IMG/VR virus record: IMGVR_UViG_3300014932_000278
Coordinates: 1-47,361 of that record
DNA: 47,361 nt
From: a virus
Direction: 5' to 3' (one strand)
Position 1 is the first letter of the stretch. Each line of letters starts with the position of its first letter. This document shows positions 3,466 through 14,860 of the stretch, in pieces. The notes under the pieces are model-generated. The model was not told the DNA's origin and did not search any database. It saw nothing but the letters and a program-made list of their open reading frames with translations. The position numbers and the translations under genes are program-made.

Positions 3466-3470
3466 CAAAA

Positions 3471-3536
3471 AGCCGACTCGGACGGGAATCCAAAATCGGC
3501 TAAATATCATCTGTTTGACTTTCACGGTGAACAGAT
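3471..3536 (+). repeat. two-hairpin intergenic element, copy A
   Basis: Between the methylase stop and the next start lie two stems: AGCCGA (3471-3476) with TCGGCT (3496-3501), and ATCTGTT (3509-3515) with AACAGAT (3530-3536). A related arrangement recurs at 3783-3838, also just before a translated segment, with the shared order AGCCGA...GCTAA...ATCTGTT. No U-tract follows, so it is not a standard terminator. It may be a leader or mRNA-processing element. Confidence 0.45.
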
Positions 3537-3550
3537 AAAAAACTAAAACT

Positions 3551-3769
3551 ATGCTACTATTCAATATTCCAGTAAAGGAAAAGAGTTACCCCGAATCAAT
3601 ACCATTTAGCGACATGGGCTTTTACGCTCTTGCTGCATGGCATGACTTCTATCGCAGGATGGGTAAAACGGAACGCTGCATTGAAATACAGGGTTGGGTA
3701 AAGAAGTTGCCAGTCCTGCATAGAATCGAAATTAAGAAGCTGAATTATTATCAGGAAGTAAAGGAGTAG
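3551..3769 (+). CDS. hypothetical protein
   Basis: 72 aa, basic and aromatic-rich, with no recognised motif. It contains FYALAAWHDFYRRMGKTE and a lysine-rich C terminus. An A-rich leader (aaaaaactaaaact) precedes the ATG. It is bracketed by the two copies of the two-hairpin element, suggesting it is a discrete inserted unit. Function not inferred. Confidence 0.6.
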   Translation: MLLFNIPVKEKSYPESIPFSDMGFYALAAWHDFYRRMGKTERCIEIQGWVKKLPVLHRIEIKKLNYYQEVKE

Positions 3770-3782
3770 AGTAAAAAAATAA

Positions 3783-3838
3783 AGCCGACCCTGCAAGGTC
3801 AGCTAAGAATATCTGTTAGGTTTTTCATGGCAATAACA
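3783..3838 (+). repeat. two-hairpin intergenic element, copy B
   Basis: AGCCGACC (3783-3790) pairs with GGTCAGCT (3797-3804) with one mismatch around the loop CTGCAA, followed by TGTTA (3814-3818) with TAACA (3834-3838). The order of motifs matches copy A at 3471-3536, although the loop sequences differ. That pattern suggests conserved structure rather than conserved sequence. Confidence 0.4.
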
Positions 3839-3902
3839 AATACAATAGTATGCATACAAACGACATGCCAAAGTATAGGCATAAAAATATAGTTAACATT
3901 TT

Positions 3903-3934
3903 TTTGAGATTACGGATAGTTTTTCTTAACTTTA
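3903..3934 (+). promoter_or_regulatory. Bacteroidota-type promoter for the GIY-YIG/replication operon
   Basis: TTTG (3903-3906), a 20-base spacer and TAACTTTA (3927-3934) fit the Bacteroidota -33/-7 consensus. Transcription would start near 3939-3942, exactly at the first arm of the interleaved RNA structure that fills the leader. Confidence 0.7.
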
Positions 3935-3938
3935 CGTC

Positions 3939-4100
3939 GCAACGTAACCGTATATCTCATGGGATTTTTCAATCCATATTATTACTATTTAACGATAGAA
4001 GCAGGCACGGGTTTAGTCCCAGAGAGGTTACGTTGCAGTTTCCCCTTGTTGCCTGCTTCGCCATTTTTATTCCTTTCCGTAACCTCAAAACTGCAACAAT
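3939..4100 (+). ncRNA. structured 5' leader with interleaved and alternative helices
   Basis: Three long perfect complementary pairs were read. A: GCAACGTAACC (3939-3949) with GGTTACGTTGC (4026-4036). B: GAAGCAGGCA (3998-4007) with TGCCTGCTTC (4050-4059), interleaved with A, so A plus B form a pseudoknot. C: GTTGCAGTTT (4032-4041) with AAACTGCAAC (4088-4097), which shares bases 4032-4036 with A and ends 3 bases before the ATG at 4101. A and C exclude each other, and C would cover the start region. A smaller hairpin lies at 3959-3977. The layout is that of a translational switch. The ligand or trigger is unknown, and no known riboswitch class was recognised. Confidence 0.6.
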
Positions 4101-4481
4101 ATGGAATCAGTAACAATCAAAAACCATCCAGCTCAGGAGTTTGTATTTATAGAAAATGAATGGAAATCGCCTGATGATTTAGGGAATAGTTGCGCTAACC
4201 CTCCAAGTGTACCCGGGGTATATTTTATAGCGACTGGCAAATACAACCCCCAAGATGGTAAAGCATACTGGCATATATTATATGTAGGTAGTTCAAAAAA
4301 CCTTCGTAAAAGATATAATACTCACGAAGTTTTATCAGAAATAAGAACTACGTGTTTGCGCAAAGGAATTAAACCTTATTTCTGGTTTCGGCCGGAATCT
4401 AATTTTCTTAAAAGGGAAATTGAGTTAATAAAAGACATATTACCTCCTTATAACACACAACATAAAAAACAAACCCTATAA
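4101..4481 (+). CDS. GIY-YIG endonuclease-domain protein
   Basis: 126 aa. The GIY half reads as PGVYFIA (about residues 38-44) and the YIG half as LYVGSS (60-65), followed by the conserved Arg in KNLRKRYNTHE. A C-terminal KREIELIKDILPPYN segment fits the end of the domain. It is a single-domain nuclease, probably free-standing and mobile. The ATG at 4101 is preferred because it follows the structured leader and ends 2 bases before the replication initiator gene. Expression may be controlled by that leader. Confidence 0.8.
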   Translation: MESVTIKNHPAQEFVFIENEWKSPDDLGNSCANPPSVPGVYFIATGKYNPQDGKAYWHILYVGSSKNLRKRYNTHEVLSEIRTTCLRKGIKPYFWFRPESNFLKREIELIKDILPPYNTQHKKQTL

Positions 4482-4483
4482 TT

Positions 4484-5182
4484 ATGGCACTTACTCAATA
4501 CGAGTTATCACGTAGTTTTTGGGACTTCGCTTTTGAGAATCCCGACTTAGTAAAACCAACGCATATATCTATTTTCTTTTTTGCTATCGAGCATTGTAAC
4601 AGGCTCGGATGGAAGGATAAATTCGGGCTACCTACGTCTATGGTTATTGAGGCAATAGGTATTAATTCTTACAATACTTTCAGACCACATTTTGACAATT
4701 TAGTAAAATGGGGATTTATAAAAGTTATAGAATCTTCTAAAAATCAGTACTCAAGTAATATAGTTGCCCTATCAACCGGGGTGTCAAAATCTAACAAAGC
4801 ACTTGATAAAGCACTGATAAAGCACTCATCAAAGCACTTGCAAAGCACTTGTGAAAGCATCGGTAGTATAGATAAACCAATAACAATAAACAAAGAACCA
4901 ATTTATACACCCGAACAAACAGAAAGGTTTTCCTTTTTCAATTTATGGATAATGGCAAATGCTAAAAGGGTATCGGAAATGAAGGAGCCTTTTACTATCG
5001 ATCAGTTTATAAAATTGAAAGAGGATTTTACAAATGAGCAAATACAGGATTACCTAACAAGGATGCATAATCACTCTAAGTTAAAAAATAACATCAGCGC
5101 ATACTTAACTTTTAGAAAGTGGACCGCTAAAGACGGAGTTAATAAACCCGCATCACAACCGAAAAAATCAGTAGTAATATGA
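4484..5182 (+). CDS. winged-helix replication initiator-like protein
   Basis: 232 aa. The N terminus (about 1-85) begins with MALTQYELSRSFWDFAFENP and a helix-turn-helix-like segment around GLPTSMVIEAIGINSYNTFRPHF, as in phage replisome organisers. A C-terminal helical block (about 140-215) could be a DnaD-like or helicase-loading region. Its stop overlaps the ATG of the primase-helicase (ATGA at 5179-5182), which implies coupled translation. Six iteron-like repeats sit inside its coding region at 4796-4860, as in lambda O. The initiator role is inferred from position and iterons. Confidence 0.7.
   Translation: MALTQYELSRSFWDFAFENPDLVKPTHISIFFFAIEHCNRLGWKDKFGLPTSMVIEAIGINSYNTFRPHFDNLVKWGFIKVIESSKNQYSSNIVALSTGVSKSNKALDKALIKHSSKHLQSTCESIGSIDKPITINKEPIYTPEQTERFSFFNLWIMANAKRVSEMKEPFTIDQFIKLKEDFTNEQIQDYLTRMHNHSKLKNNISAYLTFRKWTAKDGVNKPASQPKKSVVI
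4796..4860 (+). repeat. six iteron-like repeats, candidate replication origin
   Basis: AAAGCACT begins at 4796, 4808, 4819, 4831 and 4842, with a diverged sixth copy (AAAGCAT) at 4854. Steps are 12, 11, 12, 11 and 12 bases, close to one helical turn. Because the step is not a multiple of three, the copies fall in different codon frames, so the repeat is kept at DNA level rather than by the protein. An A+T-rich stretch follows (4861-4920). The layout matches origins located inside initiator genes. Confidence 0.7.
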
Positions 5183-7044
5183 TTTCTCAATATTCCATAG
5201 AACAAGTAAAGGCGGCTGCGAATGTGGTTGAGGTGGTAGGCCGATACGTTACCTTAAAAAAGGACGGGGTAAATGTGGTTGGCTTATGTCCGTTCCACAA
5301 TGAAAAATCCCCATCCTTTAAAGTGTCGGCAACTAAAAATATTTACAAATGTTTCGGCTGCGGCAAATCAGGTGACAGTATAGATTTTATTCAGCAGAAC
5401 CAAAATAAGAACTACATAGAGGCAATTACAATTATTGCAGGTTTTTATAACATAACACTTGAAGAAGAAGTAACGACAGTTGCCAGGGTATTTACAAAGC
5501 CAGTTTTTAAACCCGGGGACATAGGTACAAAGTTTCTGAATTGGTTTGCCAATAGGGGTATAAGCCCCAATACGCTGAATGAGTTAAAAGTTACTCAGGT
5601 TATGGAGTGGATGCCAAAAGCTAAGGCGGAAACGGAAACTATTTGCTTTAACTATTTCAGAAATGACGAATTAGTAAACGTAAAGTACCGGGCGGATAAT
5701 AAGGATTTCAAACTTTCCAAAGATGCCGAATTGGTCTTTTACAACATCGACAGCATCAAGGATAAGGATTATGTCGTGATTACGGAGGGAGAAATTGATT
5801 GCTTATCGGTGTATCAATCAGGGATTAAATCGGTTATTTCCGTACCAAATGGAGCTGCAAAGGGCAATCAGAAGCTAGATTATCTAAATAATTGTTGGGA
5901 TGCGTTTGAAAATGTGAAAAATATTGTCCTAATGGTGGATAATGACGAACCGGGGATGATGCTCCGGGAGGAACTAGGTAGGCGATTTGGTTTTGACCGA
6001 TGCTTAAAGGTTGAATACCCGGAAGATTGTAAGGACGCAAACGATATATTAGTAAAATTTGGGGCGGTAGTACTGCTGGATACTATCAAAAACGCAGTAG
6101 AATTTCCGATAGAGGGTATTCACTCCATGACGGAAATGTACGAAGATGTTAAAAACTACTACGATAACGGATACCCGAGGGGAATAAAAGTAGGGATACC
6201 AAACTTTGACGACCATCTTTCGTTTATGCTCGGGCAGTTTACGACAGTTACGGGAATCCCCGGAAGTGGTAAAAGTGAATTTATTGATTACCTGATGACT
6301 GAGGCAGGTAAAAATCATGGGTGGTCCTTTGCGGTATGTTCTTTTGAAAATCAACCATCGAGCTTGCATGTTACTAAGATAATGGAAAAGTATGTAGGTA
6401 AATCATTCAAAAAGACATTTGACGATAAGGACCGTATTTCCCGGGTGGAGTTTGACGACGCAGTAAATTTCGTAAACGATCATTTTTACTTTATCAATAT
6501 CAACAAGGTTGAGGCAACACTTGACGGGATATTACAGAAGACAAAAGAATTAGTATTGCGTAAAGGGGTAAAGGCTCTATTACTGGACCCGTGGAACTAC
6601 GTAGAGCATAAAAGCCAAAAAGGACAGACGGAAACGCAGTATGTAAGTGAATGTCTTACAAAAATAAAGGCATTTGCATTAACGCATCAGGTCCACATAT
6701 TTTTAGTGGCTCACCCTTTAAAGATGCCAAAGGTTGCAGGGAAATACGAAGTACCTACACTTTACAATATATCCGGCAGCGCACACTTTTTCAATAAAAC
6801 AGACAACGGGATAACGGTCTACCGGGATTATGAGTTAAAAACGGTTGATGTTCACATTCAGAAGGTCCGTTATAGTTGGCTCGGGACCGTGGGTTATGTT
6901 TCCTTTACTTACGACCTAGAGAGAAGACAATACAGACCGGTTGGCGAAATGAAAGATTTGACTGTACCCGATAATCCAATGACCGGGATAAAACCAAACT
7001 ACGCAATAAGTTCACAGGAAAGAAAAGACACGCTACCATTCTAA
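5179..7044 (+). CDS. fused DNA primase-helicase (T7 gp4-like)
   Basis: 621 aa. A CHC2-type zinc finger lies at C37, H40, C58 and C61 (CPFH...CFGC). A Toprim domain follows, with EGEID (202-206) and DNDEPG (253-258). The helicase half has Walker A GIPGSGKS (358-365), Walker B LLLDPWN (466-472) and a later LVAHP segment typical of DnaB-type helicases. One polypeptide would therefore synthesise primers and unwind DNA at the fork. The start overlaps the initiator stop by 4 bases. Confidence 0.95.
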   Translation: MISQYSIEQVKAAANVVEVVGRYVTLKKDGVNVVGLCPFHNEKSPSFKVSATKNIYKCFGCGKSGDSIDFIQQNQNKNYIEAITIIAGFYNITLEEEVTTVARVFTKPVFKPGDIGTKFLNWFANRGISPNTLNELKVTQVMEWMPKAKAETETICFNYFRNDELVNVKYRADNKDFKLSKDAELVFYNIDSIKDKDYVVITEGEIDCLSVYQSGIKSVISVPNGAAKGNQKLDYLNNCWDAFENVKNIVLMVDNDEPGMMLREELGRRFGFDRCLKVEYPEDCKDANDILVKFGAVVLLDTIKNAVEFPIEGIHSMTEMYEDVKNYYDNGYPRGIKVGIPNFDDHLSFMLGQFTTVTGIPGSGKSEFIDYLMTEAGKNHGWSFAVCSFENQPSSLHVTKIMEKYVGKSFKKTFDDKDRISRVEFDDAVNFVNDHFYFININKVEATLDGILQKTKELVLRKGVKALLLDPWNYVEHKSQKGQTETQYVSECLTKIKAFALTHQVHIFLVAHPLKMPKVAGKYEVPTLYNISGSAHFFNKTDNGITVYRDYELKTVDVHIQKVRYSWLGTVGYVSFTYDLERRQYRPVGEMKDLTVPDNPMTGIKPNYAISSQERKDTLPF

Positions 7045-9422: not shown

Positions 9423-9743
9423 TTACGCCGCTTTATTGCGCACCATAGATTTATACGAAGGGCAATCTTTAGAGGCTAACGCTTTGTTTAGTAGGGGTGA
9501 TGTTTTTAGGTATTCGTGTATCCAAAAAATTTCCCTTCCCCTATCTTCGCAAACTTCTATTAATGAAATTTCCATTTTAATACCTTTTTCGTGCCAAAAT
9601 CTCATGTATGTGTAAATTGGTGAATTGGCAGACTTCATATTGCAGTAGTGACCACTCAGTCTATTTTCTATCCTGTCGTAAGTGCTTCCAATATATACCA
9701 CTTCATTGGTTTGCGGATTGGTTAACTTGTAGATATTGCACAT
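9423..9743 (-). CDS. GIY-YIG endonuclease-domain protein
   Basis: 106 aa on the minus strand. The start MCNIYKLTNPQTNEVVYIGST holds both GIY and YIG strands of the nuclease fold, followed by Arg and His positions (RIENRLSGHY) and a Glu-rich helix. It is a stand-alone single-domain member of the family. Its own promoter (9759-9790) carries a 15-bp operator shared with the gene at 10125, so the small HTH protein at 9834 probably controls it. Confidence 0.78.
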   Translation of the reverse strand: MCNIYKLTNPQTNEVVYIGSTYDRIENRLSGHYCNMKSANSPIYTYMRFWHEKGIKMEISLIEVCEDRGREIFWIHEYLKTSPLLNKALASKDCPSYKSMVRNKAA

Positions 9744-13502: not shown

Positions 13503-14860
13503 TGGACTTAACCCACAAACAAACAATAGCACTCGATATACTGCAAGACGACAAGACGACCGAATTAATATTTGGTGGTGGTGCTGGTGGTGGCAAGTCT
13601 ATTCTTGGCGTTTATTGGATTTTAAAGAACTGTTTGAAGTATAAGGGGACAAGGTGGGTAATTGGCAGAAGTAGCCTTAAAACACTAAAGGAAACCACTT
13701 TAAACAGCTTTTGGCAAGTGTGTGCTATGCAGGGTGTAAAAGTAGGGGTTCACTTCAAATACAACGACATAAAAAGCCTTGCGACGTTCTCAAACGGTAG
13801 CGAAATAATGTTTAAGGACTTGGGCTATTACCCGTCCGACCCGAATTTTGATGAACTTGGTTCGCTTGAAATAACAGGGGCTTTTGTTGACGAGTGCAAT
13901 CAGATCATAGAAAAGGCATGGTTGGTTCTTAAATCCCGTATCAGGTTCAAACTTGATGAATACGGCATTATTCCCAAAATACTAGGTACTTGCAACCCTT
14001 CAAAGAATTGGGTGTACATGCAATACTACTCACCCCATAAAAGACATGAATTACCCGCTTACAAACAGTTTGTGCAGTCACTCATAGACGACAACGATAA
14101 AATATCTAAACATTACCGAGATAACCTGCTAACGCTCGATAAAATAAGCAAAGAGCGGCTATTATTTGGTAATTGGGAATACTCGGACGACCCCACTCTA
14201 TTATGCGATTACGACGCAATAGTTGACCTGTTCACCAATGACCATGTAAAACCAACAGGAATAAAGTATATCAGCGCAGACTTAGCAATGCAGGGGCGTG
14301 ATAAGTTCATTGCAGGTGCTTGGGATGGCTTGATATGCAAAGTGGCCTTAGACCAGCCAAAAAGCACCGGAAAGAGTATTGAAACTGATTTACGCAGGCT
14401 GATGGAGTTGAACGGAGTTGGCAGGAGCAGAACCGTTGTCGATAGTGACGGGATGGGGAATTACCTTGAATCGTATTTGGAGGGGATAAAAGAGTTTCAT
14501 GGCGGGGCGGCGGCTGTACCTGTTTATTCACTTGTTGATGACGGAGCATATGACGGCAAGAATCCCCCCGCAGAGTATGCTAACATTAAAGCTCAATGCG
14601 CCTACAAGCTGGCAGAATTGATAAATAATCGGGCAATCAAGATATTATGTACACCTGAGCAAAAACAAGCCATTATTGAGGAAATAGGCATACTAAAGGC
14701 GGATAGTGTGGATAAGGACGAAACAAAGAAGCGGATAATCAAAAAGGAATTGATGAAGGAGTTGTTAGGCCGTTCGCCTGATTATCTCGATATGCTGATT
14801 ATGCGTATGTACTTTGAGATACAGCATCCCGACCCTGAATGTTACGTAGACAGGGGATAA
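13502..14860 (+). CDS. terL: terminase large subunit
   Basis: 452 aa. The ATPase has Walker A GGAGGGKS (26-33) and a Walker B-type strand GAFVDE (126-131). The nuclease half has an RNase H-like start YISADLAMQGRDK (256-268), an acidic strand VVDSDGMG (312-319) and a late acidic segment near RSPDYLDMLIMRMYF. It powers packaging into the procapsid through the portal and cuts concatemers. Length is normal for the family. The start overlaps the previous stop by one base. Confidence 0.95.
   Translation: MDLTHKQTIALDILQDDKTTELIFGGGAGGGKSILGVYWILKNCLKYKGTRWVIGRSSLKTLKETTLNSFWQVCAMQGVKVGVHFKYNDIKSLATFSNGSEIMFKDLGYYPSDPNFDELGSLEITGAFVDECNQIIEKAWLVLKSRIRFKLDEYGIIPKILGTCNPSKNWVYMQYYSPHKRHELPAYKQFVQSLIDDNDKISKHYRDNLLTLDKISKERLLFGNWEYSDDPTLLCDYDAIVDLFTNDHVKPTGIKYISADLAMQGRDKFIAGAWDGLICKVALDQPKSTGKSIETDLRRLMELNGVGRSRTVVDSDGMGNYLESYLEGIKEFHGGAAAVPVYSLVDDGAYDGKNPPAEYANIKAQCAYKLAELINNRAIKILCTPEQKQAIIEEIGILKADSVDKDETKKRIIKKELMKELLGRSPDYLDMLIMRMYFEIQHPDPECYVDRG

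Follow-up and report, generated by a model that had tools for sequence, protein, structure and literature searches.

The results of our analysis suggest that a leader in the window (the whole 47,361-nt stretch of viral DNA considered here) is probably a c4-type autoregulatory antisense RNA module heading a phage early (replication) operon. The leader contains three perfect helices: A (3939–3949 paired with 4026–4036, 11 bp), B (3998–4007 with 4050–4059, 10 bp), and C (4032–4041 with 4088–4097, 10 bp). All three were found exactly where an earlier sequence-only reading of this DNA had placed them; a fourth, helix D (4024–4032 with 4078–4086, 9 bp), was absent from its list. Helix A is interleaved with B, and B is interleaved with C. 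Positions 4032–4036 are common to A and C, and D competes with A. The idea of a structured leader with mutually exclusive pairings, including one next to the start codon, is upheld, and relatives described below keep these pairings by compensatory changes. As had been claimed, the helices are not a product of chance: three stems of at least 10 bp are present in the 3939–4100 region compared to a mean of 0.006 in 3000 dinucleotide shuffles, none of which contained even two such stems. No other 162-nt stretch of the 47-kb window has more than one perfect stem of at least 10 bp. The MFE z-score of the leader is −2.8.

Bacteroidota promoters carry TAnnTTTG as the −7 box. A promoter of this type can be read from the sequence directly upstream of the leader, at 3903–3934 on the plus strand, where the promoter had been expected: it consists of TTTG (3903–3906), a 20-nt spacer, and the −7 box TAACTTTA (3927–3934), which has one mismatch to the consensus. 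All leader elements lie on the same strand. Arm a, GCAACGTAACC (3939–3949), begins 4 nt after the −7 box, is presumed to be located at the transcript start, and would represent an a1-like 5′ copy of the target. It is perfectly complementary to 4026–4036, within the putative antisense loop a′, GAGGTTACGTTGCAGTTT (4024–4041). The loop can pair with three partners: arm a through 4026–4036, segment D through 4024–4032, and a″ through 4032–4041. It is enclosed by arms b (3998–4007) and b′ (4050–4059), the perfectly complementary 5′ and 3′ sides of the stem that closes the c4-like body. The stem is followed by a U-rich stretch (4064–4071), possibly a weak terminator or an AU-rich ribosome landing site. 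Further downstream are target segment D, CGTAACCTC (4078–4086), and the a2-like target a″, AAACTGCAAC (4088–4097), which ends 3 nt before the start codon. The word CGTAACC is shared by arm a and the downstream target, where segment D carries its second copy (triple test, P < 0.001).

The first gene of the operon (4101–4481, plus strand) encodes a small, 126–amino acid GIY-YIG nuclease (Pfam PF01541, above cut-off). It is followed by a replication initiator–like gene, “ini” (4484–5182, plus strand), which was recognized through its relatives and has no Pfam or PHROG family above cut-off, and by a primase/helicase gene (5179–7044, plus strand; PHROG 239, Pfam CHC2/Toprim/DnaB_C). An iteron array within ini (4794–4859), AAAGCACTTGAT, comprises about 5.5 copies of an 11-nt unit and encodes KALDKALIKH, which recurs in relatives; judged by these repeats, it is a lambda O–like origin inside the initiator gene. 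Elsewhere in the window, a second GIY-YIG gene is located on the opposite strand (9423–9743, minus), and two repeated intergenic hairpin leaders (3469–3550 and 3781–3850), AAAGCCGA...TCGGC / GGTCAGC and then ATCTGTT, flank a 72–amino acid open reading frame (3551–3769).

The sequence-only reading had tied the leader to the GIY-YIG gene. This link did not survive the comparison with relatives. The combination of leader and GIY-YIG gene was found only in near-identical copies (L001 and L002), in which neither the leader nor the gene differs from the window; since their leaders are identical, these copies are uninformative on covariation. No match to the combination was found in phage or plasmid collections. 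The initiator-like and primase genes next door, on the other hand, have many relatives, and in many of them ini directly follows a leader. None of the other initiator loci encodes the GIY-YIG protein of the window, which is restricted to this lineage, and in relatives the leader precedes HNH genes, small open reading frames, the initiator, or genes of antirepressor operons. The GIY-YIG gene is thus incidental. Since such leaders also exist where this gene is absent, both a GIY-YIG–specific switch and an RNA-guided nuclease with an upstream guide RNA (IscB-like) were rejected. Genes for small nucleases of the GIY-YIG or HNH type are often found directly behind leaders (window, 4101–4481; L039, 2032; L041 and L215, HNH; L006, 7847; L127, 6344), resembling an insertion hot spot.

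To describe relatives of the window leader, we use the term class II for leaders that lack the 5′ hairpin P1 present in the class I leaders considered below, that have an arm a of 11 to 17 nt located 3 to 4 nt behind the box, and that have a″ at the start codon. By its layout, the window leader belongs to this class. A box-anchored scan for a–a′–a″ triples returned 10 boxes with scores of −48 or lower compared to none in three shuffled sets (6580 boxes). Among the 10, the phage 6H leader was matched from two boxes, while L029 and an antisense match in L006 were weaker and were left out, giving seven well-supported leaders: the window, L041, L039, L145, two in Riemerella phage RAP44, and one in Flavobacterium phage 6H. 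The shared-word test yielded P ≤ 0.002 for each of the seven. The six leaders other than that of the window have the same arm order and a −7 box located 3 to 4 nt before arm a; their sequences differ.

In the syntenic relatives L041 and L039, the leader heads the same primase operon as in the window, and a″ occupies the same position. The L041 arms are ACTTGCGACAGTAA (a), TTACTGTCGCAAGT (a′), TGCCCGG/CCGGGCA (b/b′), and AAACTTGCGACA (a″, running into the AUG); those of L039 are TGAATCCGCGAA (a), TTCGCGGATTCA (a′), GGCTGGGGT/ACCCCAGCC (b/b′), and AATCCGCGA (a″). The first gene behind the leader is a 62–amino acid open reading frame followed by HNH in one case, or HNH itself in the other. L213 carries a single-nucleotide change in a″ that keeps the pairing as G-U. 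The tail pattern TTTTTAYTCCTTTCC recovered L213 and L215 as true relatives plus the near-identical contigs of the window; the remaining matches were due to chance. L110, considered as a leader homolog, proved to be a GC-rich chance match. In L145, the leader is located directly before the initiator. RAP44 (L219) contains two alignable paralogous leaders, at 13712 and 30567, before two antirepressor operons. A comparison of the two leaders shows that a, a′, and a″ have changed together. Here, as in 6H, a″ overlaps the AUG, and in RAP44 it covers the start codon and codons 2 to 4 of the genes preceding the two antirepressors. The two operons carry orthogonal a/a′/a″ codes within one phage and thus constitute a natural specificity test pair. 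The compensatory changes to be expected of homologous leaders are found in all helices. Overall, the seven leaders are independent, with a, b, a′, b′, and a″ all re-coded yet complementary.

The layout of these leaders was compared to that of the C4 RNA of phages P1 and P7 (RF01695; a1 b1–c4–a2 b2–icd–ant). The phage P1 record is annotated with promoter, a1, b1, c4, a2, b2, and icd, and a blind triple test recovered TTGACAG as both a1 and a2 (P = 0.002). Like C4, the window leader has a promoter, a 5′ target copy, a stem-loop body with an antisense loop, and, where the first gene of the same operon starts, another copy of the target. More specifically, the promoter consensus lies directly upstream and the operon genes are on the same strand; the two target copies, one behind the promoter and one at the first gene, flank the body and are both complementary to the loop; and a′ is enclosed by the 10-bp closing stem b/b′. 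The window differs from C4 in having one target of the a type (plus D) where C4 has both a and b, a simple stem-loop body instead of a three-stem fold, arm a at the presumed transcript start, a Bacteroidota host and promoter, and no match to the Rfam model. Its operon encodes a GIY-YIG nuclease, initiator, and primase, not an antirepressor (icd, ant), although the RAP44 leaders do precede antirepressor operons. In C4, the a′ and b′ loops bind the target mRNA, b′ occludes the ribosome-binding site, and this follows processing by RNase P, which excises c4 from the P1 leader (PMC5320573).

The closest Rfam counterpart in Bacteroidota is the c4-2 RNA (RF02944, clan CL00128), to which the 6H element belongs with 49.4 bits (cut-off 41). 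Matches above the cut-off are present in 7 of 296 Bacteroidota genomes at three to six copies each, compared to 21 C4-like small RNAs in Acinetobacter baumannii (PMC5320573). The c4-2 loci share the a–a′–a″ triple with the window: the word follows closely on the −7 box, the core loop contains its complement, and a second copy is located at the start codon. The triple was detected at P ≤ 0.01 in 16 of 29 c4-2 loci of Bacteroidota genomes. Two of these loci, L250 and L253, have 3-nt spacing and a″ on the AUG, which links c4-2 to the RAP44 and window type. The c4-2 copies found within one Bacteroidota genome (L224 to L253) carry different a words. Since phage P1, the c4-2 loci, and the window have matching layouts, the window leader is built like a c4 module.

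The window leader is nevertheless not a member of either Rfam family, because its scores fall short and it lacks both the three-stem core and the second contact. A full Rfam scan, c4 models included, returned no match for it at E ≤ 5, and the window, L041, L039, L145, and RAP44 gave no RF02944 match at E ≤ 10. The window lacks the c4-2 core (GGAAAC loop, GGUG/CACC, and the TCCTA/TAGGA second contact): neither a continuous antiparallel second contact of the b type nor a GGAAAC loop was found in 4008–4049, and there is no three-stem fold. Helix D is an alternative pairing and not an additional second contact. No Rfam riboswitch matched the leader, and the arms of class II leaders contain no conserved sequence of the kind that aptamer nucleotides would leave; an intron or ribozyme was also dismissed for lack of an Rfam match. 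The sequence-only reading had recognized no known riboswitch family and had suggested a candidate new RNA switch. The first statement agrees with the Rfam scan. Of the second, a structured leader outside Rfam stands, but it is not a new kind of switch: its layout is already that of the phage P1 c4 module, and Rfam c4-2 RNAs include Bacteroidota elements of closely similar build. We therefore regard the leader, on the grounds of its layout, as a new c4-like variant outside the Rfam C4 and c4-2 families.

Promoter-initiated leaders with the interleaved order a–b–a′–b′ and unrelated sequences also precede the initiator in relatives. Among 91 distinct leaders, 24 scored better than every one of 200 shuffles of the same leader, and nearly all of these 24 have a −7 box located a few nucleotides before a. 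When TAnnTTTG boxes in all collected loci were scanned, pseudoknot scores of −32 or lower were obtained at 29 boxes; the corresponding control counts were 2 for shuffled, 1 for upstream, and 1 for reverse-complement sequences. Interleaved leaders precede many genes, with up to three per contig. In the members that we refer to as class I, the loop of a P1 hairpin carries a, and P2 (b/b′) contains an inner stem, P3, with a′ in the loop; a U-run and then the start codon come after P2. In a covariance alignment built without modeling a/a′, 92.6% of a/a′ positions are paired, with two-sided changes in six of eight pairs. For the whole structure, 124 two-sided cells were counted compared to 39 in shuffles and no more than 50 when the structure was slid. 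Class I leaders belong to no Rfam family. The class I covariance model R1 finds class I leaders (E values of 1e-16 to 1e-9) and misses the window, so the assignment of the window to class I was rejected; R1 had no match in five Bacteroidota genomes. Examples of class I, recognizable by kissing of the P1 and P3 loops, the internal loop TGAA/GGATTT, the U-run, and the presence of several per contig, include L127 (3898), L128 (3896), L018 (4699), L020, L026, L139, L196, and about 50 more, and they also occur in the cultured phages Danklef_1, 11b, sniff9-2, JQ, and phi10:1. Classes I and II might belong to a single family.

The mode of action of the leader, be it a cis on/off pseudoknot or a trans-acting antisense RNA, is one that we infer from sequence. 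In the proposed c4-type mechanism, transcription would start at or beside arm a, and the body (3998–4059) would fold as stem b/b′ with antisense a′ in its loop. On the intact nascent transcript, a would pair with a′ as a pseudoknot or kissing interaction, leaving the start region free and the operon translatable. Release of the body as a small RNA, as by RNase P for phage P1 c4, would mean that a′ is no longer held by a. Free a′ could then pair with a″ (and D) by the start codon, either of its own transcript or of a different copy. This pairing would block translation of the first gene, presumably acting in trans, and would probably also stop expression of the replication genes behind it. The predicted outcome is a copy number–dependent shut-off and possibly immunity. 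In all seven class II leaders, a:a′ is more stable in cis than a′:a″. Repression would therefore require that the body be released or that a be blocked.

The same finding bears on a rather unlikely alternative close to the sequence-only reading, a leader switch acting purely in cis. Here, a and a″ would compete for a′ on one transcript with no released antisense RNA, and a protein, an RNA, or folding kinetics would choose between a free and a masked start. The mutually exclusive placement of a, a′, and a″ on one transcript and the lack of any further copy of the full 11-nt arm a in the window fit such a switch. Class I leaders, which have a/a′ without a″ and show no excess of extra arm-a copies nearby (4 compared to 2.85 expected), also suit cis pairing of a and a′. 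However, a forms the stronger pairing and is transcribed before a″, so the switch would be stuck in the on state unless some further trigger acted, and the layout equals that of the proven trans-acting antisense RNA of phage P1. We consider it improbable that the leader is a transcription attenuator, in which b/b′ and the U-rich stretch would form an intrinsic terminator delayed or prevented by a:a′. A U-run does follow b′ in class I (61% T compared to 34%, with at least five T of eight in 70%), and the window has ATTTTTATT a few nucleotides behind b′. Yet the U-rich stretch is not universal in class II: L039 lacks it, and that of 6H is poor. The loop of the stem spans 42 nt, and an attenuator would not explain why a″ is located at the start codon.

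Failure to explain a″ also weighs against a very improbable reading in which a helix hides the 5′-terminal bases and thereby shields the transcript from 5′-dependent decay. Although a or the P1 hairpin starts 3 to 11 nt behind the −7 box, i.e., at about +1, in nearly all members, this protection would likewise not account for covariation of a′ with codons 1 to 4 of the RAP44 genes. Least probable of all are DNA-level inverted repeats, serving as operators or origin sites. They are suggested by the perfect 6-4-6 palindrome TTACGTCGCAACGTAA across the start point (3932–3947) and by GGTTACG-like words recurring in the leader. The window contains no other perfect palindrome, and this one is absent from the L041 and L039 leaders, so that it was rejected as an operator. 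Among relatives, the words are not kept while the pairing is, and such compensatory change disfavors action at the level of DNA.

Competing leader pairings before a replication initiator are known from the pseudoknot control of plasmid initiators, e.g., ColIb-P9 repZ and the pT181 repC attenuator. In these systems, the antisense RNA comes from the opposite strand, whereas a′ of the window is on the leader’s own sense strand. The HK022 put and EAR processive antiterminator RNAs are structured RNAs at the very 5′ end of phage or operon transcripts; they keep their sequence, whereas the arms of window-type leaders are freely re-coded and a″ targets the start codon. No description of the leaders reported here was found in the literature searched.

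The c4 RNA of phage P1 is the textbook case of antisense immunity. A c4-type reading of the window leader means that this layout, re-coded beyond recognition by covariance models, heads replication and antirepressor operons of Bacteroidota phages. It is a tentative possibility that these phages hold a large set of freely re-coded c4-derived and kissing-loop leaders, a single superfamily that gives each early operon its matched antisense code for copy-dependent shut-off and phage-specific immunity. If so, such leaders, often several per genome, would control early operons for replication, homing nucleases, and antirepressors, and both classes would form an RNA superfamily missed by sequence-based libraries. 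Members missed by sequence profiles can be found with a search rule that looks for a promoter, arm a, a stem-loop containing a′, and a″ at the start codon. Testable elements are available in the cultured phages Riemerella RAP44 and Flavobacterium 6H, and the leaders may provide programmable RNA control parts for Bacteroidota. Overall, our results suggest widespread antisense control of early operons in a group of phages whose gene control has been little studied.
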